In this document: piece after piece, positions 16,273 through 30,815 of the stretch
Layout of the letters: every line of letters begins with the position of its first letter
Numbering within the stretch: position 1 is the first letter of the stretch
Assembly (NCBI GenBank): GCA_902619495.1
Contig: CACNEM010000007.1
Span: forward strand, 1-34,391
Source of the DNA: an uncultured Pelagibacteraceae bacterium
GTDB lineage: Bacteria; Pseudomonadota; Alphaproteobacteria; Pelagibacterales; Pelagibacteraceae
Reading direction: 5' to 3'
Length of the DNA: 34,391 bases
Translations under genes and position numbers: made by a program
Notes under the pieces: model-generated
The model's database searches: none
The model's input: only the letters and a program-made list of their open reading frames with translations
Told to the model about the DNA's origin: nothing

Positions 16273-17418
16273 TTAATTTTTGTAAAATTTTTCGATAGTA
16301 TTAACTACATGCTTAATATGATTTTTTTTTATAAATTCATGCACAGGAAGTGACAATGATGTATTTGCTAATTTCTCAGCTACTGGAAAATCGCCTTTTT
16401 TATACTTTAAAAATTTTGCTGCTTTTTGTAAATGAACGGGTATTGGATAATGAACTTTAGCATCAATATTATTCTTTATTAAATATTTTTTAAGTTTATC
16501 CCTTTTTTTAACATTAATATGATAAAGATGAAAAACTTCTTTCAAGTGTTTATGTCTTTTAACTAAAGTGATATTTTTATTTTTCGCAAGCAATTTATCT
16601 AACATTATTGAGTTACTAATTCTTTTACTTGTAATGTTATCTAATTTATTTCTCATTTTATAATTTGCAACTACAGCTTGGATAGTATCTAGTCTAGAAT
16701 TATAACCAAAAACTTCTACACTATTTCTGTTCTTTAACCCGTGATTTCTAATTAGGTATAATTTATCTGCCAAAGATTTATTATTCGTAACTATAAATCC
16801 ACCATCACCCCAAACATTAAGATTTTTTAGTGGATGCATACTATATGTGCAGGTATCTCCATAATTTACTAAATGATTTTTTTTAAATCTTGCTCCAATA
16901 ATATGAGCACTATCCTGAATAATTTTTAGATTGTACTTTTTTGCTATAGATTTTATTTTGTCCATTTCACACGGTCTACCTGCCCAATGGACTGGCATTA
17001 TCGCTTTGGTTTTTTTTGTAATTGCTTTTTCAATCTTTGTCTCATCCATGTTATAATCCTCTTTCACATCTACAAAGACTGGTTTTGCTCCTGCTGTAAC
17101 AATTGAACCAACTGTTGCAACAAATGTATATGGAACAGTTATAACCTCATCTCCAGAACCAATGCTAAGCGCTTTTAAACTTAACAATAATGCGTCTGTT
17201 CCATTTCCAACACTAATTGCAAATTTTGCGCCTGTCCTCTTTGCAAAATTCTTTTCACAAATATCTACAGCGCTTCCGAGAGTATAATCGCCTTTTTTAA
17301 CTACTTTTTCTATTTCTTTGAAAACTTTTGAATAATCAGCAAACTGCTCAACTAAGTAGCTATGATTTATATTTAGCTTCTCGTTTTTTTTGTATTCTTG
17401 TGGTAAAAAATTTTTCAT
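16273..17418 (-). CDS. DegT/DnrJ/EryC1-family sugar aminotransferase
   Basis: A PLP-dependent enzyme that typically aminates a keto nucleotide-sugar. Of 381 residues, the fold-type I landmarks are present: GNGTDAL at 71-77 for cofactor phosphate binding, QDSAH with Asp169 under the PLP ring, and the Schiff-base Lys198 in SMHPLKN. It is the last gene of the six-gene operon starting at 22934 and is coupled by TAATG to the dehydratase-like SDR. That pairing suggests amination of the 4-keto (or 3-keto) product. The exact sugar is not predictable. Confidence 0.88.
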   Translation of the reverse strand: MKNFLPQEYKKNEKLNINHSYLVEQFADYSKVFKEIEKVVKKGDYTLGSAVDICEKNFAKRTGAKFAISVGNGTDALLLSLKALSIGSGDEVITVPYTFVATVGSIVTAGAKPVFVDVKEDYNMDETKIEKAITKKTKAIMPVHWAGRPCEMDKIKSIAKKYNLKIIQDSAHIIGARFKKNHLVNYGDTCTYSMHPLKNLNVWGDGGFIVTNNKSLADKLYLIRNHGLKNRNSVEVFGYNSRLDTIQAVVANYKMRNKLDNITSKRISNSIMLDKLLAKNKNITLVKRHKHLKEVFHLYHINVKKRDKLKKYLIKNNIDAKVHYPIPVHLQKAAKFLKYKKGDFPVAEKLANTSLSLPVHEFIKKNHIKHVVNTIEKFYKN

Positions 17419-18422
17419 TATTTTTTAAGTTGTTTATCTTGGTATAGTAAATCTTTTTTTGAAAATATATTTAAATACTTCTTATGATAAAACATTATCT
17501 CCTGTAAACCTTTTTTTAAAGTATAAACTGGTTTCCAGTTCAACTCTCTCATAGTCATATTAGATCCTAATTTGTAAATAAAGTCTTGACCTACTCTACT
17601 TTTTATTTTCTTCACTAATTTTTTTTTATCGTAGGACTTTAGGTCGCATACATTTCTGATTATATCATTAACACTGTAAAATTTTTTTCCTGAAAAATGG
17701 TATGTTTTTCCAATTTTGCCTTTAAGAATCATTTTTTCAATTCCAGAGGAAAAATCATTTGAAAATATAAAGTTTCTTTTAGATAGTCCATTGCCTTGTA
17801 AAGTAAATTTTTTTTTATAATCTACACAATTAATTAATTTTGGAATTAATCTGTAAAGTGGTTGACCAGGACCATAGAAATTTGAAAATCTAGAAATAAT
17901 CAGCGGAAAACCAAAATTTTTTTCGTAATTTTTTAGAAGATTCTCAAAACTTAACTTTGATGTAGCGTAAGGTGTTTGAGGTGAAAATAAACTACTTTTT
18001 TCATCTATATATTTTTTTGATGATCCAAAAATTTCAGGAGTAGATATATATATATATTTTTTTAAAAATTTAGAATTACTTAAAAATTCAATCATCTTAG
18101 TTTTAGACAAAACATTTATTTGAAAATAAGTACCTGAATTTTTCCAGCTTTCATTGACCATACAGATAGATGCAAAATCTATTATCACCTCAGGCCTTAC
18201 TTTTTTTATAATGTTAATTAAATTGTTTGAATTTTTTAAAAAATCAATTTTATATTGTCTAAAATTTTTTTTTTTTTTGTTATACTTGTATGGTAAGTAG
18301 CAATTTCTTTTTTTTTTTCTATATGTACCAAATATTTGATAGCTATTTTTATTCAATAAATAATTGACTGTGGATGCACCTGAAAAGCTAGAGCTACCTA
18401 AAATCAATATCTTTTTTTTCAT
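17418..18422 (-). CDS. NAD(P)-dependent extended SDR, nucleotide-sugar dehydratase/epimerase-like
   Basis: An extended SDR, 334 residues, with the Rossmann glycine motif GSSSFSGAS (9-17) and catalytic Tyr152xxxLys156 (PYATSK). The segment ISTPEIFGSS (126-135) corresponds to the active-site TDEVYG of dTDP-glucose 4,6-dehydratases. Glu130 is kept but the preceding Asp is Pro, closer to the TSE form of GDP-mannose dehydratases. SRFSNFYGPGQP and KRNFIFSNDF are typical of sugar-nucleotide binding. It sits between the E1-like beta gene (4 bases upstream) and the aminotransferase. Confidence 0.82.
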   Translation of the reverse strand: MKKKILILGSSSFSGASTVNYLLNKNSYQIFGTYRKKKRNCYLPYKYNKKKKNFRQYKIDFLKNSNNLINIIKKVRPEVIIDFASICMVNESWKNSGTYFQINVLSKTKMIEFLSNSKFLKKYIYISTPEIFGSSKKYIDEKSSLFSPQTPYATSKLSFENLLKNYEKNFGFPLIISRFSNFYGPGQPLYRLIPKLINCVDYKKKFTLQGNGLSKRNFIFSNDFSSGIEKMILKGKIGKTYHFSGKKFYSVNDIIRNVCDLKSYDKKKLVKKIKSRVGQDFIYKLGSNMTMRELNWKPVYTLKKGLQEIMFYHKKYLNIFSKKDLLYQDKQLKK

Positions 18423-18426
18423 TTAA

Positions 18427-19476
18427 TTAAAAAGGTCCTTTGAAATTTGAGTCAGGCACATCATGAAGAATAGTGTCAGAGTTTTTTAATTTAATTTTTT
18501 TTCCAACAAGTTTACTTATATCGTTTAAAATATCATTTTTTTTAATATAAAAATCTCTCGTATAAAATGTACTAGTTGGTGTTGGTATATCGGGTAATGT
18601 TTTTAATAAAGGTGGTTTGATTAATTTAATATTTTTCTCTCTGTATAATTGAGATAATATCTCTGATCCTATTGAACAAAACGGATGAGAAATAGAGTCA
18701 AGTACAAGAAGTCTTTTAGTCCTTTTTAAAGAGTTTTTAATTACTGATATGTCTAGAGGTTTGATTGATTTTAGATCGATTAAATCAAAACTTATCTTGT
18801 TTATTTTTAATACATTTTTTATAGAGAGCATTTCAATTGTAGAAAGAGAGTAAGAAACCGCTGTAAAATCTTTTCCTTTAGAAATTAATTCCGTTAAGTT
18901 TTGTTTATTTTTATATTTAATTTTTTTTGTTTCTTGTTCAATATTGTGTAACCATCTATGCTCAATAAAAATAACTGGGTTTGGATCTCTTATTGATTTT
19001 TTTAAAAGGTTATAAGCATCTGAAGGAAATGAAGGCATGACAACTTTTAAACCAGGTATATGTGCAAACCAACTTTGTAAACTTTGAGAGTGAGTTGGAC
19101 CTTGTCCCCAACCCTTTCCAACTACTAATCTAATTGTAATTGGTACGCTATTTTTTCCTCCAAACATGTAATGCCATTTTGCTGCGCTATTAACTAGTTG
19201 ATCCATAGCTAATAAAAAAAAATCTAATCTTTGATGCATCATAACACATGGATTATTGTTTAAAGACATACCGACGCCTATTCCAGTCATGGCATTTTCT
19301 GAAGTTGGAGTCTCAAATACTCTTTCAGATCCAAATTTTTTTACCAATCCTTTTGTTGTTCCAAAAAAATTAAGGCTGTCGTTCACCCCTAAACCAAAAC
19401 ATACAAGTTTTTTATTTCTACTCATTTCCTCTGTGAGAGCTTTATTAATTGCTTGTGAGTAAGTTATTTTCGTCAT
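18427..19476 (-). CDS. ThDP-dependent E1 component, beta subunit-like (transketolase C-terminal type)
   Basis: The 349-residue product matches 2-oxoacid dehydrogenase E1-beta / transketolase-C subunits. The Pyr domain has FETPTSENAMTGIGVGM with Glu60 as the ThDP-activating glutamate. The segment GKGWGQGPTHSQSLQSWF, then HIPGLKVVMPSFPSDA, and PNPVIFIEHRWLH, are family hallmarks. The start overlaps the alpha-subunit stop by 4 bases (ATGA), as expected for a heterotetramer. No lipoyl E2 or E3 gene is in the window, and the neighbours are sugar-nucleotide genes. Function is probably two-carbon or acyl transfer in sugar synthesis rather than central metabolism (inference). Confidence 0.85.
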   Translation of the reverse strand: MTKITYSQAINKALTEEMSRNKKLVCFGLGVNDSLNFFGTTKGLVKKFGSERVFETPTSENAMTGIGVGMSLNNNPCVMMHQRLDFFLLAMDQLVNSAAKWHYMFGGKNSVPITIRLVVGKGWGQGPTHSQSLQSWFAHIPGLKVVMPSFPSDAYNLLKKSIRDPNPVIFIEHRWLHNIEQETKKIKYKNKQNLTELISKGKDFTAVSYSLSTIEMLSIKNVLKINKISFDLIDLKSIKPLDISVIKNSLKRTKRLLVLDSISHPFCSIGSEILSQLYREKNIKLIKPPLLKTLPDIPTPTSTFYTRDFYIKKNDILNDISKLVGKKIKLKNSDTILHDVPDSNFKGPF

Positions 19477-20444
19477 CTTTTATATACAAGTTTACTAATG
19501 TTTTTGAATTGAGGTTTTTTTAGTTTATTCAAATAATTAAAATCTTTGTCTACAAAATTTGTTATTTTTTTGTCTAAATTATTTATTTGACTAATTTTAA
19601 ATATCTTATTTTTTATTAAATATTTTTTTGAAAAGTCTATTGGATCCTTTTTTTTCCACTTTTTAACATCCTGTAATTTTCTATATCCAAGAAGAGTGTC
19701 ATCGTTTGGTCCACAATGCTCAAGATATCTATATGTTTCTACTTCTACAAAATGTGTTTTCGGATTTTTTCTTATTTTTTTGAAAAGTTCATCAAATTTT
19801 TTGAATAACTTAAAAGGGTTATCTTGTGTAAAAAGATGTGAAGTTGCACCCATAGCTGAAGCTAATTTATAGATCTTTCTCTTTTCTGGTTGTCTGTCTT
19901 TAATATGAGTATAAACAGAATAGAAATTATTTTCACAAATGAAAATTACCGGTAATTTTTTAAGAATACTAAAGTTAATTGATTCAAAGAAAACTCCTTC
20001 TTCGACTGCTGCGTCACCTATATAAATACAAACTAAATTTTTTTTTTTTGCTAATTTTAGTGAGTAAGCTAGTCCTACTCCAATTGGAATAGAATTTGAA
20101 ACAATTGCTGTACTACCGTAAAAATTATTTTTTAAGTCTACTAAATGCATTGAACCTCCAATACCTTTGCTGCAACCTTCCTCAAAACCATGAAGTTCCG
20201 CAAATAGCTTTTTTGATGATCCACCTTTAGCTAAAAAATGAGCATGTGATCTATGGTAACTTATTGAGATATCATTTTTTTGTAATGCTAAACCGCTAGA
20301 GGCTGCAACTGCTTCTTGGCCTATTGAGAGATGTGTAGGGCATCGCATTTTATTTTTGCTATATTGAGATGCAATTTTTTCTTCAACAACCCTGATTTTT
20401 TTTTGAATTTCATAAATTTTTTTGAAAAAATTCTTCTTAATCAT
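19473..20444 (-). CDS. ThDP-dependent E1 component, alpha subunit-like
   Basis: The 323-residue product resembles pyruvate/acetoin dehydrogenase E1-alpha. CPTHLSIGQEAV at about 35-46, SYHRSHAHFLAKG (62-74), GIGGSMHL, and the ThDP-Mg motif from GDAAVEEG (143-150) to ENN (171-173) are all present, so the cofactor site looks intact. It lies 2 bases after the epimerase and is translationally coupled to the beta subunit. The C-terminal 60 residues are Lys/Asn-rich. Substrate is unknown. The gene organisation argues for a dedicated role in building a surface sugar. Confidence 0.85.
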   Translation of the reverse strand: MIKKNFFKKIYEIQKKIRVVEEKIASQYSKNKMRCPTHLSIGQEAVAASSGLALQKNDISISYHRSHAHFLAKGGSSKKLFAELHGFEEGCSKGIGGSMHLVDLKNNFYGSTAIVSNSIPIGVGLAYSLKLAKKKNLVCIYIGDAAVEEGVFFESINFSILKKLPVIFICENNFYSVYTHIKDRQPEKRKIYKLASAMGATSHLFTQDNPFKLFKKFDELFKKIRKNPKTHFVEVETYRYLEHCGPNDDTLLGYRKLQDVKKWKKKDPIDFSKKYLIKNKIFKISQINNLDKKITNFVDKDFNYLNKLKKPQFKNISKLVYKR

Positions 20445-20446
20445 AA

Positions 20447-21394
20447 TTATTTTACATTTAGTTTTTTCATTTTCTTAAGGTTAAAATTATTTACACCGAA
20501 TTTATTTTTATTTTTACTATCAAAATAATTTATTAATTGTTGAATAGCTTTTTCAACATTATATTTCGGCATAAAACCAGTTTTTAATAATCTTGATGAG
20601 TCTTGTCGATAAGACCTGATATCTTTACTTCTATTAATCTTTATTTTTGATCCCAATTTTTTTTGTATCATTTTAGCAATTTGTAAAATGCTAAGATTCT
20701 CAAATCCAATATTGTAAATGTTATGTTTAAATTTTTTTTTGCTAAGAGCGAAATGATCTATAATCCTGACAATATCTTCTATGTGAATATTTGGTCTTAT
20801 TTGGGCACCTCCATCAACAAAGATTTGTTTTTTAAAAAATCCATCAAAAGTCAATTTATTTACAGTAACGTCTAATCTTAATCTGTCTGAAACTCCGCAT
20901 ACAGTGGCTGGCCTCAAACAAATAATGTCAATTTTATCTTTGAAACTTAAAAAAACTCTTTCTGCAATCATTTTTGTCTTGTTATAAACTGAAATTGGAT
21001 TTAATTTTAAATCTTCTGTTACGTTACGTTCCTTTTTAACTCCATAAACACTTCCGGAACTAAAAAATATGATTTTTTTAACTTTATTCTTAATTGCATG
21101 GTCAGCAATAATTTTAGAAGCAAGAACATTTATTTCCCAAGATATTTCCGGATTTAACTCCACAGTTGGATCATTAGCTACATTTGCTAAATGAATAATA
21201 ATATCAACTTTTTGTATATTTAGTTTATCAAAGTTTCTTACGTCACCTTTTATTACTTTTAAATTTTTATGTTTCTTTAAAGTGTTACCAAACCAAAAAC
21301 TATCATAAACTAAAACTTTATGTTTAAGTTTTAATAAGTGTTGCGTTACTCTTGAACCGATATATCCGCATCCCCCGGTGATTAAAAAATTCAT
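20447..21394 (-). CDS. NAD-dependent epimerase/dehydratase (extended SDR)
   Basis: An extended SDR of 315 residues. NAD-binding GGCGYIG is at 7-13, an FSSGSVYG strand at 111-118 carries the catalytic Ser, and Tyr137xxxLys141 (YNKTK) completes the triad. HLANVANDP and LRPATVCG are typical of UDP-sugar epimerases. In the operon it directly follows the cytidylyltransferase-kinase fusion, so it may act on the activated sugar as HldD does in the heptose pathway, but it is not recognisably HldD. It may equally be a 4-epimerase. Confidence 0.83.
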   Translation of the reverse strand: MNFLITGGCGYIGSRVTQHLLKLKHKVLVYDSFWFGNTLKKHKNLKVIKGDVRNFDKLNIQKVDIIIHLANVANDPTVELNPEISWEINVLASKIIADHAIKNKVKKIIFFSSGSVYGVKKERNVTEDLKLNPISVYNKTKMIAERVFLSFKDKIDIICLRPATVCGVSDRLRLDVTVNKLTFDGFFKKQIFVDGGAQIRPNIHIEDIVRIIDHFALSKKKFKHNIYNIGFENLSILQIAKMIQKKLGSKIKINRSKDIRSYRQDSSRLLKTGFMPKYNVEKAIQQLINYFDSKNKNKFGVNNFNLKKMKKLNVK

Positions 21395-21407
21395 TTATTC
21401 AATATTA

Positions 21408-22934
21408 TTATTTAAAAATGTGGCTTAAATGTTTTTTCAATATATTAAAATTAAAGGTAGAAATATTACCTAATTGATTAATTGAGTAACTGGCTGCGAG
21501 TGAACTTATTAATAATCCGACTTTTTTATTTACATTAGAGCCTAATGTCAGTGAAGATAGAGCAAAAAAAGTATCGCCTGCTCCAACCGTATCTATAGAA
21601 TTATCATTAAATGCAGGACAAGAAATTACTGATTTTGAATTATTGTTGAATAATTTAGCTCCCCATCTTCCCCTGGTTACTATAATATTTTTTAAAGTTA
21701 ATTTTTTAAACAATTTTTTTGTTAAATCCCCGAGCGAAGAACTTCTATCTTTTAATTCGTATCTTAATTCACTTTCATTGATAATATATGAGTTCATATT
21801 TTTATATTTAAAAACAGAATGGTAACCTCTATTAAAAGAATTAATTTGTGTGTTTAAAAATAATTTTTTACCAAACCTAATAATTAAATTTCTTATTTTT
21901 TCAGTTATAATTCCATGTCCATAATCAGCAACTATAATTATATCGTATTTTTTTAAATTAGATTTCAACAACTTATATAACTTAGTTTCTTCTTGCCTCG
22001 TGATTAAATCATCATTTAATTCATATACACCTAGCATTTTTGTTTTTCGATAGTCATCTAAATATCTAGTTTTAGTTATCGTCGGTGAGTTTTTTTTTAT
22101 AAGGAAATGATGCTTTATACTTTTGTTTAATTTATTAAATACATATTTTTTTTCTGAATTTTTTTCACCTAAAAAACTTATAACTTTTACTTCTTTTACA
22201 AAGCTTGAACAAAGATTGGCTATATAACCCACCCCTCCAAGGAACTTAATTTTTTTCTTCTGCTGAACCACCATCATCGGTTCTTTACCAGATTTACCAA
22301 TTGCCTCTGTCGTGATGTACTCATCAATTATTGTTTCCCCTAAAACCAAAACCTTTTTGCTCTTAATATCTTTTAAAAACTCATTAATCTTATTTTGATG
22401 AAATTCTTTACGAAGAGAGTTGACAAATTTTTTGCATTCTACGCTTATATTTTGCAACTCATTTTCATTTATATACTTACTTGAGCTAAAACTTGGCTCA
22501 TTTATCGCTCGAAATTTTCCTTTATTTAATTTAAGCACCTGCAATTCTTTTTTAAGATTAATATCGTTTTTTAAATTTTTATTTGAATAATCATTTCCCT
22601 TACAATAAAAGTTAGGTTTTAAATTCTTAATAATCTTCTCTGATGTAAAATCATTACTTATACAAACGTAATCAATAGTGCTGATCTCTTTTAGAAATTT
22701 TACTCTATTGCTAATTGTGAAAGCTGGTCTACCAGGGCCTTTATTAACAAATTGATCTTCTGTTACTGAAACAACTAAAATGTCACCTAACTTCTTTGCT
22801 GATTGAAAATAATTTATATGGCCTACATGAAGTAAATCGAAAACTCCATGACATAGGACAATTTTTTTTTTTTTAAATTTTTCTTTGATTTCTTTTAGTG
22901 ACTTTATATCTACAATTTTATTTCTCAATGACAT
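21408..22934 (-). CDS. Bifunctional nucleotidyltransferase - PfkB sugar kinase (HldE-like, domains reversed)
   Basis: A 508-residue fusion. Residues about 24-155 form a cytidylyltransferase-like domain with CHGVFDLLHVGHINYF (HVGH at 36-39). Residues about 190-505 form a PfkB/ribokinase-type kinase with FLGGVGYIAN near 237 and the anion-hole/catalytic motif DTVGAGDTFF at 448-457. E. coli HldE (RfaE) has the same two activities but kinase first. With GmhA and a GmhB-like gene in the same region, phosphorylation and NDP-activation of a heptose-7-phosphate is the best guess. It heads the six-gene operon and starts 28 bp from the divergent gene at 22963. Confidence 0.85.
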   Translation of the reverse strand: MSLRNKIVDIKSLKEIKEKFKKKKIVLCHGVFDLLHVGHINYFQSAKKLGDILVVSVTEDQFVNKGPGRPAFTISNRVKFLKEISTIDYVCISNDFTSEKIIKNLKPNFYCKGNDYSNKNLKNDINLKKELQVLKLNKGKFRAINEPSFSSSKYINENELQNISVECKKFVNSLRKEFHQNKINEFLKDIKSKKVLVLGETIIDEYITTEAIGKSGKEPMMVVQQKKKIKFLGGVGYIANLCSSFVKEVKVISFLGEKNSEKKYVFNKLNKSIKHHFLIKKNSPTITKTRYLDDYRKTKMLGVYELNDDLITRQEETKLYKLLKSNLKKYDIIIVADYGHGIITEKIRNLIIRFGKKLFLNTQINSFNRGYHSVFKYKNMNSYIINESELRYELKDRSSSLGDLTKKLFKKLTLKNIIVTRGRWGAKLFNNNSKSVISCPAFNDNSIDTVGAGDTFFALSSLTLGSNVNKKVGLLISSLAASYSINQLGNISTFNFNILKKHLSHIFK

Positions 22935-22956
22935 AATTTTATAAATTTAGTATATT
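22928..22956 (+). promoter_or_regulatory. Putative promoter of the small membrane-protein pair, leaderless-type
   Basis: ATGACA (22928-22933), 17 bases, then TATATT (22951-22956). A start 7 bases on falls at 22963, the A of the ATG. On the minus strand a TATACT (22954-22949) overlaps this -10 and could serve the divergent HldE-like gene. The intergenic space is only 28 bp. Confidence 0.45.
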
Positions 22957-22962
22957 CTAAAC

Positions 22963-23436
22963 ATGTTTTGGTTAATTATATTTTTATCTTTAGCATTAAA
23001 TATTCTTTATTATTTGGTTAGTCAAAAACTAAAAATTAAAATTTTTTCGAGGTATTTCGTTGGATTTATCCTTTATAGCTCTCTAATTTTAAGCTTACTA
23101 ATATATTTTAAATTAGACTTTATTTTTGTCAATTTTTTCTCTTTTTTTGTAATTTATTTACTTTTCTTTATATCGCTTTTTTTAAGCATGTCTATGAAAT
23201 ACATCAAAAGCCCGACTTACTTGATTTTTAAAATTTTAAATAAAAAAAGCACAAAAAAACAAATTATAAAAAAATTAGAAAAACAAAGAATACTAGAAAT
23301 TCGAATAAACGATTTAGAAAAACAAAATCTTCTTTCAATTAAAAATAAGAAAATTTCATTAAAGGAAAATTTAGGAATTATAATTAATCTATTCTTTTTT
23401 ATGAAAAAATTTTTAAATATTAAATCAGAGGGATAA
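22963..23436 (+). CDS. Small membrane protein with C-terminal helix-turn-helix-like region, unknown function (copy 1)
   Basis: I do not recognise a named family. The 157-residue product has three to four hydrophobic helices in residues 1-76. A conserved-looking junction SPTYLIFKIL follows at about residue 83. Next is a charged ~50-residue segment that reads like a small winged helix (helices ..KKSTKKQIIKKL.. and ..RILEIRINDLEKQ.., then a short beta hairpin LLSIKNKKISL), and finally another hydrophobic helix. The next gene has the same layout, and the two are coupled by a TAATG stop/start. It faces away from the HldE-like operon. Confidence 0.75.
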   Translation: MFWLIIFLSLALNILYYLVSQKLKIKIFSRYFVGFILYSSLILSLLIYFKLDFIFVNFFSFFVIYLLFFISLFLSMSMKYIKSPTYLIFKILNKKSTKKQIIKKLEKQRILEIRINDLEKQNLLSIKNKKISLKENLGIIINLFFFMKKFLNIKSEG

Positions 23437-23915
23437 TGAGTATAAATTTTTTAATTCTTATGAATATAATTAGTTACTTTTTATCGTTAAAGATATTTTT
23501 TTTTATTTTTAAGATGAGTTACGCTTTTCCTTTTAGACGTGCAGATTTATTAAGTTTTATATTTAATTTAATATTATTTTCAATAATTTCATTTAAATTT
23601 TACCCAGAATATTTTTTTATTTTTTTATTAATTAATCTTAATTTATTTTATATTTTTTTTCATTTAATAAATATGATTGTTACGTCACCCAGAACTAAGA
23701 TGTTAATTGATCTTAAAGGTCTCAAAAATAATGAAATTGATATTCGACAATATTTAAAAAAATATAATTGTACTGTAATTGTAAATAATAGAATAAGACG
23801 GCTTAAAACTAGCGGACAAATTATTGAAAAAGATAATTATTTTTTTTTAAAGAAAAATAAAATGAATTTCTTATATTTTATTTCCTTAGTTTTTTCTTTT
23901 ATAGAAAAAATTTAA
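23436..23915 (+). CDS. Small membrane protein with C-terminal helix-turn-helix-like region, unknown function (copy 2)
   Basis: Unrecognised family, 159 residues. N-terminal hydrophobic helices occupy about residues 4-82, followed by the junction VTSPRTKMLIDL, comparable to SPTYLIFKIL of the preceding protein. A charged segment (NNEIDIRQYLKKY, then NNRIRRLKTSGQIIEK) and a hairpin ending in YFFLKKNK, then a last hydrophobic helix, complete the same architecture. Its last 30 bases overlap the 3' end of the oppositely transcribed glycosyltransferase gene. Likely acts together with copy 1 at the membrane. Confidence 0.72.
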   Translation: MSINFLILMNIISYFLSLKIFFFIFKMSYAFPFRRADLLSFIFNLILFSIISFKFYPEYFFIFLLINLNLFYIFFHLINMIVTSPRTKMLIDLKGLKNNEIDIRQYLKKYNCTVIVNNRIRRLKTSGQIIEKDNYFFLKKNKMNFLYFISLVFSFIEKI

Positions 23916-24611
23916 CATTCTATAATAAATACTTTTAATAAAAATTTTTATAACTGAGACAATTACGATAAAGGAATTTTTTACACGAAATGCTTTCGAT
24001 CCTTTTTTTCTATCTTTTAGAATGGTTGGTATAATTTTAATTTTAAGATTATATCTATGATAGAGGAAAACAAAAATCTCAATTTGATAAGAAAAGCTTG
24101 AGTTTTTAAAATCAAGTTTTTTTAAAAGTCTGCTTCTATATAATGTTATACCATTAAAGTAAGGAAAAGCAGTGCCATAAATTAAGTTTAGAAAAGGAGT
24201 ATAAATTAAAGTAAATAAATTTCTAAAAAAACTTCTTTCAGTATTATTTGAATAAAAAGTGGTGACAATGTCGTAGTTTTGATTCTTAAGACTAATTATT
24301 TTACTAATTTCTTTAAAAGGATGAGAATTATCAGCTGGTATTTGTATTAGATATTTGCCTTTGCTTTTAGATATACCTTTAAAAAAATTATATCCAACTC
24401 CAAAGTTTTTTTTGTTTCTTAAAATCTTAATCTTTTTATTTTGTTTTTTAAGTTTTTTTACAATTGAAAGACTTTTATCTACACTTCCATCATCAATAAA
24501 AAGAATTTCGTAACTTGAAATTTTACTATACTTTAGCGCTTTAAATATCGAGACAAAACTTTTTTTTACAAGAGTTTCCTCATTATAACACGGTATAATT
24601 ACTGACAGCAT
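23886..24611 (-). CDS. Family 2 glycosyltransferase (dolichol-phosphate mannose synthase-like)
   Basis: A 241-residue GT2 enzyme with the GT-A signature: SVIIPCYNEE at the N-terminus, IDDGS (39-43) for nucleotide binding, and PADNSHP (92-98), the DPM1-type counterpart of the DxD site. The C-terminal hydrophobic stretch at about 205-225 (IVIVSVIKIFI) is too short for the two-helix anchor of GtrB/ArnC proteins but could bind the membrane. Such enzymes load a sugar onto a polyprenyl phosphate. It ends the operon desaturase-SDR-107aa-radical SAM-GT2. Confidence 0.88.
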   Translation of the reverse strand: MLSVIIPCYNEETLVKKSFVSIFKALKYSKISSYEILFIDDGSVDKSLSIVKKLKKQNKKIKILRNKKNFGVGYNFFKGISKSKGKYLIQIPADNSHPFKEISKIISLKNQNYDIVTTFYSNNTERSFFRNLFTLIYTPFLNLIYGTAFPYFNGITLYRSRLLKKLDFKNSSFSYQIEIFVFLYHRYNLKIKIIPTILKDRKKGSKAFRVKNSFIVIVSVIKIFIKSIYYRMLNFFYKRKN

Positions 24612-24615
24612 TTGC

Positions 24616-25779
24616 CTACAAAAAATTTACATGAAGAGGTTTTTGGCCTTTTGAAGGTGATATTTTTGCTAACCCTTTTAAATGATTGTCTAGCGCCTCA
24701 CTTACATAATGTTGAATCGGCATAGATCCCATCATTGTTTGCGCATCAAAATTTGGGGAAGCTAAATAGTTCATTATTTTTCTATATCTTTCAGATTTAA
24801 AAATATCCTTAAATCTTTCATCAACAAAGTTTCCCATATGAAGTTTTGAATATCTTGCATTAAAAAACATGCCTGAAGGTGCAACTAACCCGCTACCACT
24901 AATTTGTAATAAAAATTGAGGACCGTAAAATCTATTATAGGTAGGTTTTCCTTTTCTTTTAATTTTGGACCATTTAACAATCACTTTTGTTTTTTCATTA
25001 CTCATAGACTCAGCTTTTTTAAGAGACTCATACATCTCTTCATACTTATTGTAGTCAACGCCAAGAGTTCCGAGCTCGTCATCTGAACAATGTTTAATCA
25101 CTCCATAATCTACGCCAAGATCAAGAGCAAGTTTTGCAAAAGGTAAGATTTCATCTTTGAATTCTGGCATCAATACCATTTGAATTCCTAAAGTAACTTT
25201 TAAATTTAATTTTTTTTTAAGTTCTACTGCGTATCTGATGTGAGACATTGCTCTATCAAATACCTCAGTATGTTTTTCACTTTTAAACATTATTTTTGAA
25301 TATCCCTCAGGTGTACCTGCGGCGACAGTAAATCTTACCCAAGTTAAAGATGGAAGAACTTGATCGATTTTTTCTGGCTCCCATTCCCATCCATTGGTCG
25401 CATTACCAACGTCGATACCTATCTTTGATGCATGTTGAATAAATGGAACGTAAGCTTTTGAAAGCGTACTTTCACCATCTGAAATTAAAGAGACAGCTTT
25501 TATGCCTACTTCTGCAAAGTCATCTAAAAGGTTTAAAGCTTCCTTTGTTTTGATGCTTGCTCTCTCTTGAGGTTCTTGAACCATTGCGTAACAGAAAGAG
25601 CACATAGCACCGCAGGCTCTTGTCAGTGCCATATCAACTGTTACTGGTGCAATTTGCTCTCCATTTTCCCAGGCTTTAACTCTATCATAATGATAAGATA
25701 GTTTATGGGAATCCAAAATAAGATTTCCCTCTTGAGTGCTCACAGCATTTAAGTTTTCTATTTTTTCAATAGCGCTCAT
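24616..25779 (-). CDS. Radical SAM protein, substrate unknown
   Basis: The 387-residue product carries the radical SAM cluster motif as Cys56-xxx-Cys60-xx-Cys63 (RACGAMCSFCYAM). A GE-like motif follows (SDGEST), with a TIM-barrel pattern (GNATNGWEWEP, VRFTVAAGT). No SPASM-like C-terminal cysteine cluster is visible; the only later Cys I noted is in IKHCSDDE. Its codon and amino-acid composition is less AT-biased than the flanking surface genes, suggesting stronger constraint or different history. The start shares one base with the stop of the 107-aa gene. The lipid and glycan neighbours hint at lipid or sugar modification (inference). Confidence 0.88.
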   Translation of the reverse strand: MSAIEKIENLNAVSTQEGNLILDSHKLSYHYDRVKAWENGEQIAPVTVDMALTRACGAMCSFCYAMVQEPQERASIKTKEALNLLDDFAEVGIKAVSLISDGESTLSKAYVPFIQHASKIGIDVGNATNGWEWEPEKIDQVLPSLTWVRFTVAAGTPEGYSKIMFKSEKHTEVFDRAMSHIRYAVELKKKLNLKVTLGIQMVLMPEFKDEILPFAKLALDLGVDYGVIKHCSDDELGTLGVDYNKYEEMYESLKKAESMSNEKTKVIVKWSKIKRKGKPTYNRFYGPQFLLQISGSGLVAPSGMFFNARYSKLHMGNFVDERFKDIFKSERYRKIMNYLASPNFDAQTMMGSMPIQHYVSEALDNHLKGLAKISPSKGQKPLHVNFL

Positions 25780-26102
25780 TAATTAAATTTGATTCCTCTT
25801 AAATTTCTCAACTTACTTTTATCTCCAACAGGTTCTAACCAAACACTGATACCTTTATCTAATGAAGATTTCAACTTTTCTTCCAGCTCTAAGAGCAAAA
25901 TACCTCTTTCTTTCGCTGGTATAGTTCGCTCAATTTTGAGAACTATTTGGCCATTATCCGGGGCTTCTACAACTTCAAAACCATCATAAATTTTATTTTT
26001 TTTTAATTCTTCGGCAATCATTTCAATTCTAATGCTTTCGGAGAGGTTTTTCCACTTTTCACTTGGTCTAGGCGTTTCTTGATTTGAAAAGTTTTTCACC
26101 AT
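25779..26102 (-). CDS. 107-aa protein of unknown function, coupled to radical SAM gene
   Basis: Not recognised. The product has no membrane helix, signal peptide or cysteine. It looks like a small alpha/beta domain: a helix EKWKNLSESIRIEMIAEEL, strands around DGFEVVEAP and GQIVLKIER, a helix KERGILLLELEEKLK, and a distinctive C-terminus VWLEPVGDKSKLRNLRGI. Coupling to the radical SAM gene by TAATG suggests a partner or substrate-binding subunit. Its composition also resembles that gene rather than the Lys/Asn-rich neighbours. Confidence 0.8.
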   Translation of the reverse strand: MVKNFSNQETPRPSEKWKNLSESIRIEMIAEELKKNKIYDGFEVVEAPDNGQIVLKIERTIPAKERGILLLELEEKLKSSLDKGISVWLEPVGDKSKLRNLRGIKFN

Positions 26103-27975: not shown

Positions 27976-29256
27976 TCATAATATTTTATATAGAAATAAC
28001 TCATTAGAATAATTGCAATCCGGGCAAGCTAATTGCAAATTTTTGTGATTTATAGAAAAGGATGAAATAATAAATTCTGCTCCAACTTTTTTCGCCTCTT
28101 TAAAATTTATTAATAAATTTTTCTTATCACTAAAAAATAGATACACTCTGTTTCCCCATTCATCATAATATTTTTTTAACTTTTGATTTTGATTAAGTTC
28201 ATCTTCTATAATTTTTCTAAACTTTTTCTTGTACGATAAAGGATAAATTTGATGATAGCCGTCGATTACATAAATATCGTTCATAGCTGCAATCATTGGG
28301 TCAACTCCCAATGAAGCTACTTTAGAATTACCTGTAATATTCTTAATTTTTTTATAAATATCAAATTTATAATAAACATCAAATGAGTTGGTAGCTTTTA
28401 CTCTCAGACTTTTAAAAGTATAATTTTTATTTTCAAATATTATTTTAATTGAGTTTATAATATCTCTATTTTTGTAACTTTTCTTTATCTCTGCTAAAGA
28501 TTTTTCCTCAAGATTTTGTTTAAAAAATTCTTTTGAATACTCAATAAGGGGAAAATAGATTTGCAAAGATATTGATGAAAAAATAGTGAAAATTACAAAT
28601 AATTTTTTATATTTAACATTACTTGTTATTTTTAAAGTCAAAACTAACAAGATGCTAAAAATAAAAGGAATGAAATTTGATATTCTAGAAAAATTATAAC
28701 CTTTAAGAAATATAAGAAAATTTTCAAAAATAAATTGCAAGACTGAAGAAGAAAAAATAGTTTTTAAAATATAAGTAAAAAATAAGAAAAGTAAAAAAAA
28801 CCTAATCTGCTTATTTTTGTAATAAATAATTGATCCTAATATAAACAATTTAACCATATTCATTGGCAAAAAAAATAGCTTAATAAAATCATTTATCATA
28901 AAATTATTTGCTAAATTCGATAACTCATTAATAATTGCACTTAATAAACTTGGTTTATTCATTATAACTCTGTTAGTCGGTTCACCTAAGATTGATAAAA
29001 ATGATGGTATCGATGAAATAGAAAGTCCAATTAGTACTAATATTGAGATTATAAAGAAATTTTTTTTATTATGACTATCCAAGTAAAAAGAACTCAAAAT
29101 TAAAGCCATGATTAGAGACGGTAAGTCAAAAATTATAGAACTATTTAAACCAATAAAAAATATAATGAGATAATGTTTTAATTGGATTTTTTTTTTAATT
29201 AAAATTAAATAGATGAGGTAAGGTAAAAAAAGATAAAAAAATCGTAGGATTATCAT
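27976..29256 (-). CDS. DUF6044/YfhO-like multi-pass membrane protein, C-terminal part of a frameshifted gene
   Basis: A 426-residue open frame with about eight membrane helices, then a soluble C-terminal domain after about residue 240. That domain shows VASLGVDPMIAAMN, YVIDGYHQIYPLSYKKKFRKII and KYYDEWGNRVYLF, a pattern I associate with DUF6044, relatives of YfhO GT-C-type glycosyltransferases. It starts without a natural N-terminus and overlaps the preceding 156-aa frame by 62 bases in the +1 frame. Two 7-T runs lie in the overlap. Together the two frames make one protein of roughly 560 residues. Confidence 0.75.
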   Translation of the reverse strand: MIILRFFYLFLPYLIYLILIKKKIQLKHYLIIFFIGLNSSIIFDLPSLIMALILSSFYLDSHNKKNFFIISILVLIGLSISSIPSFLSILGEPTNRVIMNKPSLLSAIINELSNLANNFMINDFIKLFFLPMNMVKLFILGSIIYYKNKQIRFFLLFLFFTYILKTIFSSSVLQFIFENFLIFLKGYNFSRISNFIPFIFSILLVLTLKITSNVKYKKLFVIFTIFSSISLQIYFPLIEYSKEFFKQNLEEKSLAEIKKSYKNRDIINSIKIIFENKNYTFKSLRVKATNSFDVYYKFDIYKKIKNITGNSKVASLGVDPMIAAMNDIYVIDGYHQIYPLSYKKKFRKIIEDELNQNQKLKKYYDEWGNRVYLFFSDKKNLLINFKEAKKVGAEFIISSFSINHKNLQLACPDCNYSNELFLYKIL

Positions 29257-29665
29257 TATTATTTATTAAGTTGACCAAACTTGCATAAAGTATCGCTCCC
29301 AAGATTGAATAATGTTTATTTTTTGAAAAAGATTTAGAAAATAGATAAAATGAGAAGTAAGCAGCAATTTTTTCCAAGATTTCAACAAAAAAATAAAAAT
29401 GTTTATCAGAAAAAATTATGTGAAAAAAATTAATTGGATAAAGAACTTTATCAAGATAGAACCATTTAAATTCTCCTGATAAAAATAATTTAAAACTGTT
29501 AAAATCTCCTTTGTATATTTTTGAAATTACATGATTATAAACTGTATTAATCTCCAGATTATCATGCGGATATAGAACTACAGAATTAAATAACAGGAGT
29601 GAAATTAAATAATAGGAAGAAAAAATGAATAGAGCTATAATGTGTAAATTTAGTTGTTTATTCAA
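29195..29665 (-). CDS. DUF6044/YfhO-like membrane protein, N-terminal part of a frameshifted gene
   Basis: A 156-residue frame giving the expected N-terminus of the following ORF: a first membrane helix (about 8-28) and a periplasmic loop with VLYPHDNLEINTVYNH, where an acidic HDN motif is where GT-C-like enzymes keep catalytic acids. More helices follow, then the frame ends at LFNFN. Reading one T fewer in either T-run (minus strand, around 29245-29225) joins it to the next frame as ...NPTIFYLFLPYLIYL. Either a true frameshift, a slippage-controlled gene or a sequencing error. Confidence 0.7.
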   Translation of the reverse strand: MNKQLNLHIIALFIFSSYYLISLLLFNSVVLYPHDNLEINTVYNHVISKIYKGDFNSFKLFLSGEFKWFYLDKVLYPINFFHIIFSDKHFYFFVEILEKIAAYFSFYLFSKSFSKNKHYSILGAILYASLVNLINNNDNPTIFLSFFTLPHLFNFN

Positions 29666-30254: not shown

Positions 30255-30815
30255 CTATTTTATTTTATTAATCTTAATCAAGTCGCAAACTGCCAATAAC
30301 CAAATTTGATGTGTATTTTCAATATGATTATAGATGTTACTGTCAACCCACAAGTTAATATCTCCGAGTTTAGAAAGTGGATTGTTTTTTTTATGACCTG
30401 TAAAAGTAATTATTTTTTGAATTTTTTTTCTTCTCGCAGCTTTACAAGCATTTAACATATTTTTAGATTTACCACTTGAGGAAATTAAAATTAATATATC
30501 ACCCTTACTTCCATAAAATTCTATGGCTTTTTCAATCCATTTTTCATATCCATAATCATTAGAAAAACAAGTAATAAGATCAGCTTCGTTAAAATTCATA
30601 GCTTTAACTTTAATATTTTTAGTCATATCAACACTTACGTGACTAGCAATTGCTGCACTTCCACCGTTTCCAAATATCAAAATTCTCGAGTTCATTTTTT
30701 TAGCTTTCAAAACTAAGTTTTTAATTTTTATAATATTTGCTAAAATTCTATCATTAGGAATAATTTTAGAACTTATCTTACTTAAATATTTCTTGGCGCT
30801 AAATATGTCGGACAT
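30255..30815 (-). CDS. gmhA: Phosphoheptose isomerase, SIS family
   Basis: GmhA converts sedoheptulose 7-phosphate to a glycero-manno-heptose 7-phosphate, the entry to heptose synthesis. The 186-residue product is a single SIS domain with FGNGGSAAIASH (about 48-59), LISSSGKSKN for phosphate binding, and a C-terminal ENTHQIWLLAVCDL, all as in GmhA. Together with the HAD phosphatase and the kinase-nucleotidyltransferase fusion, three of four steps of a nucleotide-heptose pathway occur within 9.5 kb. Confidence 0.88.
   Translation of the reverse strand: MSDIFSAKKYLSKISSKIIPNDRILANIIKIKNLVLKAKKMNSRILIFGNGGSAAIASHVSVDMTKNIKVKAMNFNEADLITCFSNDYGYEKWIEKAIEFYGSKGDILILISSSGKSKNMLNACKAARRKKIQKIITFTGHKKNNPLSKLGDINLWVDSNIYNHIENTHQIWLLAVCDLIKINKIK

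Follow-up and report, generated by a model that had tools for sequence, protein, structure and literature searches.

Two coupled genes of a SAR11 surface-sugar island encode paralogous membrane proteins with predicted winged-helix tails, a possible membrane platform for a short GT2 enzyme

Within a 34,391-nucleotide stretch of DNA from an uncultured SAR11 bacterium (termed here the window; genome completeness 77%), two small genes, A and B, lie between a sugar-nucleotide operon and a gene encoding a short GT2 enzyme. These and the neighbouring features are:

16273-22934, minus strand: sugar-nucleotide operon of six genes, five of them homologous to genes of the Sneathiella A/B cluster
22935-22962, no strand: gap of 28 bp separating gene A from the divergent PfkB/nucleotidyltransferase gene
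22963-23436, plus strand: gene A (protein P0001), 157 aa; three predicted transmembrane (TM) helices, SP junction, predicted winged helix, last helix
23436-23915, plus strand: gene B (protein P0002), 159 aa; paralogue of A, sharing its predicted layout
23886-24611, minus strand: short GT2, 241 aa, lacking a C-terminal TM hairpin; convergent with B and its proposed partner
27976-29665, minus strand: large DUF6044 membrane protein, its gene lying in two frames that overlap (27976-29256 and 29195-29665)
30255-30815, minus strand: SIS-type protein; the Sneathiella A/B cluster has a homologous SIS gene

The stop codon of A (TAA) and the start codon of B (ATG) have one base in common (TAATG), so that the open reading frames confirm the coupled genes of 157 and 159 aa described in an initial annotation of this DNA. 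That annotation also had the pair reading away from the sugar operon, which is true of the 28-bp divergent gap beside A but leaves out that B converges upon the GT2 gene, with a 30-bp overlap. Promoter-like matches between positions 22800 and 24100 number eight, which is not above the mean for shuffled sequences (10.7).

The operon encodes an aminotransferase, two epimerases, an E1 alpha/beta ThDP enzyme and a PfkB/nucleotidyltransferase fusion. The fusion, the epimerases, E1 alpha/beta, the SIS protein and the GT2 are common to the window and the Sneathiella-type cluster (the shared sugar genes occupy 16273-22934 and 30255-30815 in the window, and their counterpart is at L050 1713-17049); the sugar made by the shared operon genes is perhaps unusual, and a heptose-derived origin is conceivable. 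The DUF6044 protein is proposed, solely from its layout, to be an extracytoplasmic GT-C-like transferase. Its two pieces each align with their own part of a single 566-aa protein from genome G109 (L071:6872-8572), and the two-frame gene reflects either a frameshift break or an assembly error; a frameshift, if real, would bear on the system's functioning in this strain. Between the GT2 and SDR genes sit a radical SAM protein (24616-25779, minus strand), for which none of the 25 NCBIfam models among the matches listed reached its cut-off, and a 107-aa neighbour (25779-26102, minus strand).

Hydropathy analysis places three hydrophobic peaks at the N-terminus of A and three at that of B. These are followed in both proteins by an SP junction, an RIxxL motif (RINDL in A, RIRRL in B), a hairpin and a final helix, a shared layout that had been proposed at the outset and that the sequences and the AlphaFold2 models bear out; the junction motif first given as SPxxxxI/L, on the other hand, describes B (SPxxxxL) but not A, which has SPxxxI. 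The assertion that the proteins belong to no known family likewise holds against Pfam and NCBIfam, neither of which yields a match above cut-off: for A no model in either collection reaches E ≤ 1, and for B there is a single chance-level Pfam match (E 0.16, far under the cut-off) and none in NCBIfam. Nor was a description of the pair found in the literature, as judged from titles and abstract openings.

The AlphaFold2 models share an identical order of elements, namely three long helices followed by helix-helix-helix-strand-strand-helix. For A, the helices span residues 2-23, 27-51, 56-79, 84-93, 98-105, 109-120 and 135-150 and the strands residues 124-127 and 130-133 (pLDDT 64); for B, the helices span 3-30, 32-55, 57-82, 85-94, 103-109, 113-125 and 140-158 and the strands 129-132 and 135-138 (pLDDT 67). 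These models were built from five alignment rows and are of modest confidence. They agree with the winged-helix tails suggested by the initial annotation, and the assignment of both tails to the winged-helix fold is moderately supported: Foldseek gives no match at E ≤ 0.001, but winged-helix regulators make up most of the 50 matches listed; VIA gives middling Z scores (up to 7.8 over residues 82-159), its listed matches being largely winged-helix proteins; and the likenesses are to MarR-, PadR- and CggR-type winged helices. Sequence searches of the PDB brought up a MarR regulator (E 0.39) and, in alignments spanning 30 residues, designed repeat proteins; none of these was accepted as a relative.

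Direct comparison of P0001 with P0002 by BLASTP gives only a weak match (E 0.14), but a comparison of profiles, built from 12 sequences each, aligns A with B over 151 columns at a profile-profile probability of 97.7 (E 1.9e-12), a score reached by none of 100 column shuffles. The full score is 79, and the best of 100 shuffles that kept the TM part and the tail apart reaches 19.8; for the tail alone, the score is 46 and the highest value from 100 column shuffles is 16.6; the TM part alone matches weakly (probability 27.5). It is the SAR11 rows that carry the tail signal (tail-only probability 95.8 for these alone), the Sneathiella rows by themselves being weak (16.7). HMMs from which the window's rows were withheld recover P0001 at 41.3 bits (A HMM) and P0002 at 47.5 bits (B HMM), as against 11.0 and 12.9 bits, respectively, for the best of 2000 shuffles of each protein, and the A HMM matches a Sneathiella-type B protein at 9e-7. 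An A HMM built from Sneathiella rows only gives P0001 7.1 bits, below its shuffles (9.3 bits), and hence P0001 is joined to the Sneathiella A proteins via SAR11 intermediates. By these profile comparisons A and B are paralogues with one predicted layout, as the initial annotation had supposed of their relatedness.

An adjacent A/B pair occurs in 12 distinct genomes: five of 257 SAR11 genomes, including that of the window, and seven of 25 genomes from the order of G760 (termed here the Sneathiella relatives). A adjoins B in all 12 genomes having a true B relative. The profile search of the 257 SAR11 genomes gave eight matches, three of which (G139, G140 and G291) were set aside, from the match table alone, as interrupted by stops or partial. 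When 397 SAR11 genomes were searched with a single sequence, the matches were mostly weak, 69 genomes matching at E ≤ 0.1; four of these were examined--yielding true pairs in G109, where two overlapping genes lie in a sugar cluster, and in G085, and rejecting G092 and G299--and the rest may include further true relatives. The single-sequence matches at SAR11 loci L006-L009 resemble chance. In the window's own assembly there are two further A matches, both weak and partial (E 0.08 and 0.46), and no further B match at E ≤ 0.01.

In wider searches, the B profile matched two of 384 other Alphaproteobacteria, A and B being adjacent in both, and nothing else at E ≤ 0.001 in 397 other genomes of the phylum. 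The Sneathiella A pair was also used to query contigs from 84,980 species; of the 63 stretches obtained, four were confirmed, two of them from Sneathiella. G1167 and G1178 carry B at the exact contig positions of loci L049 and L050, and the A/B proteins of G1181 are identical to those of L051; three of the seven matches among Sneathiella relatives are thus these same loci, which leaves the 12 distinct genomes counted above. Plasmids searched with the Sneathiella A or B protein gave no match, and no A/B match was confirmed in viral contigs.

The immediate neighbours of the pair differ between the two groups. In all seven Sneathiella-type loci, A is directly preceded, within a few bases or with overlap, by a gene of one LPG_synthase_TM BLAST cluster, and is followed by B; the one copy scanned, from L050, matches Pfam LPG_synthase_TM and NCBIfam TIGR00374 (flippase-like). 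SAR11 A/B loci contain no member of this cluster. The six uncut Sneathiella-type loci have A and B inside a co-directional run of biosynthesis genes. In G164, three overlapping genes on a single strand encode A, B and a membrane protein of 423 aa; in G086, a gene encoding a 562-aa membrane protein is divergent from A, and a 457-aa protein of the same locus has no Pfam match; in G109 and G085, the pair diverges from a cluster gene that encodes an alcohol dehydrogenase. From one A/B locus to another, the large membrane proteins show no detectable homology. GT2 enzymes and large membrane proteins are frequent in polysaccharide loci generally.

GT2 enzymes of one BLAST cluster (loosely defined, by single linkage) are present at all ten uncut A/B loci and in 11 of the 12 A/B genomes, which upholds the suggested tie between the pair, a surface-polysaccharide system and a GT2. 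In G1181 the GT2 sits on a separate contig from A and B, and in G085 none occurs in the 14,000 bases examined of its short contig. The GT2 gene immediately adjoins the pair in the window, and at the other uncut loci it lies 1-14 kb away (14 kb in G109). The GT2s of the A/B genomes (n = 11) are 240-249 aa long and lack a membrane hairpin, having at most one hydrophobic peak past residue 200, this peak falling within residues 205-234 in six of the 11. By comparison, eight GT2s from loci containing GtrA--hand-picked, and not blindly, from six loci of Sneathiella relatives, G603 and Hirschia--are 308-364 aa long with two or three peaks past residue 210 (two G1161 GtrA loci were excluded from this comparison, no GT2 having been recognised there).

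Several known systems offer a framework for these observations. In the Gram-positive systems, small DUF2304 membrane proteins (GacJ, WpsB and EpaJ) act as activators of the soluble GT2s GacI, WpsA and EpaI, respectively (PMC8035078, PMC8327497, PMC10821137). A review describes GacI as a cytoplasmic GT2 needing the separate three-TM membrane protein GacJ (PMC8035078). WpsA is a GT2 that lacks predicted TM segments, though it has a hydrophobic bump at about residues 215-235; it is activated by WpsB, which has three predicted TM helices, and in a model the stretch 93-115 of WpsB, located in or close to the fourth and last helix of that protein, touches WpsA (PMC10821137). A and B resemble GacJ, WpsB and EpaJ in being small three-TM proteins of a system with a TM-less DPM-like GT2 and a polytopic transferase; judging from predicted element order and hydropathy, the arrangement of three TM helices followed by a further helix, as in GacJ and WpsB, is present in A and B as well, and their topology would follow suit. 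Unlike GacJ and WpsB, however, they are two paralogues of about 160 aa, each with a predicted winged helix, and their genes do not always adjoin that of the GT2. DUF2304 (PF10066) is absent from the matches of the 24 A/B proteins at E ≤ 10, a list that is shortened by the HMMER filters, which discard most matches above about 0.1.

In human dolichol-phosphate mannose synthase, the membrane subunits DPM2 and DPM3 are required for bringing the cytosolic catalytic subunit DPM1 to the membrane (PMC4281381). A and B may, by analogy, be two membrane subunits for a cytosolic catalytic subunit. The DPM2 and DPM3 Pfam families do not occur among the matches of the 24 A/B proteins at E ≤ 10, under the same filters. 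DPM2 and DPM3 are smaller than A and B and are not known to carry a winged helix.

Taken together, the co-occurrence of A and B with a GT2 in surface-sugar clusters makes them likely membrane helpers of that enzyme, and they probably hold or help the GT2 at the membrane rather than control genes. A more specific reading, to which about even confidence is attached, is that A and B are a two-subunit membrane platform, analogous to GacJ and WpsB, for a GT2 whose product is a polyprenyl-phosphate sugar. On this model, the paralogous pair would reside in the inner membrane, probably as a heterodimer, with three TM helices and a cytoplasmic tail in each subunit (for A we infer that the winged helix lies in the cytoplasm); it would anchor and activate the short soluble GT2, which would load a sugar onto polyprenyl phosphate; and a large polytopic GT-C-like protein would use the lipid-linked sugar outside. 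The pair might also assist the lipid-sugar in crossing the membrane.

The docking surface for the GT2 would be the helix right after TM3 together with the winged helix, and it is the analogy to WpsB along with conservation after TM3 that suggests a GT2 platform to which winged helices were added as docking domains. Among the seven Sneathiella-type rows, mean pairwise identity in the post-TM3 segment is 0.91 for A and 0.74 for B, as compared with 0.63 and 0.64, respectively, in the recognition helix; over all 12 rows, the corresponding values are 0.49 versus 0.36 for A and 0.48 versus 0.46 for B. The post-TM3 segment is thus conserved above the recognition helix clearly in A and slightly in B. 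Gene context, including the survey of SAR11 neighbourhoods, favours the scaffold or GT2-partner role that was among the first suggestions for this pair.

Another suggestion, a flippase role, is possible. In its full form--that A and B are themselves the polyprenyl-phosphate sugar flippase, in place of GtrA, with the winged helices coupling the GT2--it is considered unlikely. GtrA is the usual presumed flippase for polyprenyl-phosphate sugars. A and B resemble it in being small membrane proteins of the same kind of module, and GtrA is thought to act as a dimer (PMC8035078). Unlike GtrA, A and B carry a predicted winged helix, and they have no sequence match to it (the GtrA_DPMS_TM profile, PF04138, is absent from their Pfam matches). 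The argument for replacement is genomic: searching whole genomes with the GtrA profile (PF04138) at E ≤ 0.01, a search that took in the A and B proteins themselves, gave no match in any of the 12 A/B genomes, and in no genome examined for both was A/B found together with GtrA.

Within G760's order, where the comparison can be made with genomes lacking the pair (for SAR11 the A/B genomes alone were covered), the counts are as follows, with Fisher values that overstate the evidence given the relatedness of the genomes and the incompleteness of several: GtrA exceeds its cut-off in 0/7 A/B genomes versus 7/18 others (p 0.13) and reaches E ≤ 0.01 in 0/7 versus 9/18 (p 0.027), the two extra matches falling in frames of 500 aa or more; c14, a large membrane protein of 681 aa, is present in 7/7 A/B genomes versus 5/18 others (p 0.0016); and the 12 c14-bearing genomes comprise seven with A/B but no GtrA, four with GtrA but no A/B (G1163, G1165, G1170 and G1171) and one with neither (G1173, which is 70% complete), a distribution with p 0.010. 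A/B and GtrA are therefore mutually exclusive among c14-bearing Sneathiella relatives. In G1165, c14 is grouped with GtrA and a long GT2; the distance from c14 to GtrA is about 17 kb in G1171 (on one contig) and about 58 kb in G1163, and near c14 in G1170 there is just a weak GtrA match, about 2 kb away. Where c14 occurs without A/B in Sneathiella relatives it belongs to another shared locus type, whose first gene product begins MRVAIVQSNY (L087 5972-14582, L106 2930-11340 and L104 4019-7809); in L106 a GT2-like gene is split across two frames.

Against a flippase in GtrA's place, the LPG_synthase_TM-cluster gene that precedes A in all seven Sneathiella-type loci could do the flipping, and A-like proteins also occur beside GtrA. 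These proteins are more distant relatives: G603 has a single A-like protein of 215 aa beside a GT2 and GtrA, and plasmid pHbal01 of Hirschia baltica has an A-like gene, HBAL_RS16110, beside a GT2 and GtrA according to the record's annotation (the A HMM matches these at 1.3e-6 and 2.5e-10, respectively, within a small set of ORFs). The Hirschia A-like, glycosyltransferase and GtrA genes stand in a row at L078 8977-11120. Because in both genomes the A-like protein accompanies GtrA and a long GT2, the family is no strict substitute for GtrA; and because it accompanies a GT2 even where GtrA is present, a GT2-partner role is favoured over pure flippase replacement. A bolder version, in which an A/B heterodimer would replace both GtrA and the membrane domain of GtrB--six TM helices flipping the polyprenyl-phosphate sugar and two winged helices, perhaps taken over from DNA-binding folds, clamping the soluble GT2--is regarded as speculative and doubtful.

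Regulation, the remaining role put forward in the initial annotation, would make A and B membrane-bound transcription regulators of the polysaccharide cluster that sense a signal from the envelope or from lipids. DNA is the usual ligand of winged helices, the predicted fold of the tails is that of MarR-, PadR- and CggR-type regulators, and the pair is divergently transcribed from the operon in the window and from the alcohol-dehydrogenase gene in G109 and G085. Unlike those regulators, A and B have three TM helices, and gene context gives this role no support. The co-directional biosynthesis runs around the pair in the six uncut Sneathiella-type loci fit it less well, as does the peak of conservation after TM3 (despite its small margin in B over 12 rows) and as may the net charge of the recognition segment (-1 to +1 for A in the seven Sneathiella-type proteins; 0 to +3 for B in all 12), set beside tails that in SAR11 are lysine-rich overall. 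A regulatory role is accordingly the less likely part of an initial interpretation that, as a whole, is partly supported, and it is held to be rather improbable. Also improbable is service in some other surface-polymer step, for instance alongside a polymer exporter or the LPG_synthase_TM protein, the link to the GT2 then reflecting shared islands: these islands are full of glycosyltransferase genes and the nearest membrane partner in Sneathiella-type loci is LPG_synthase_TM rather than the GT2, but SAR11 A/B loci have no member of that cluster, and the split between short and long GT2s, along with the exclusion of GtrA, indicates a polyprenyl-phosphate step.

A family that seemingly swaps with GtrA in sister genomes provides a natural test of what moves polyprenyl-phosphate sugars and how soluble GT2s stay at the membrane, and Hirschia baltica is a named strain in which the family could be tested. 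If the platform reading is true, it would give a role to two genes of a SAR11 surface-sugar island.
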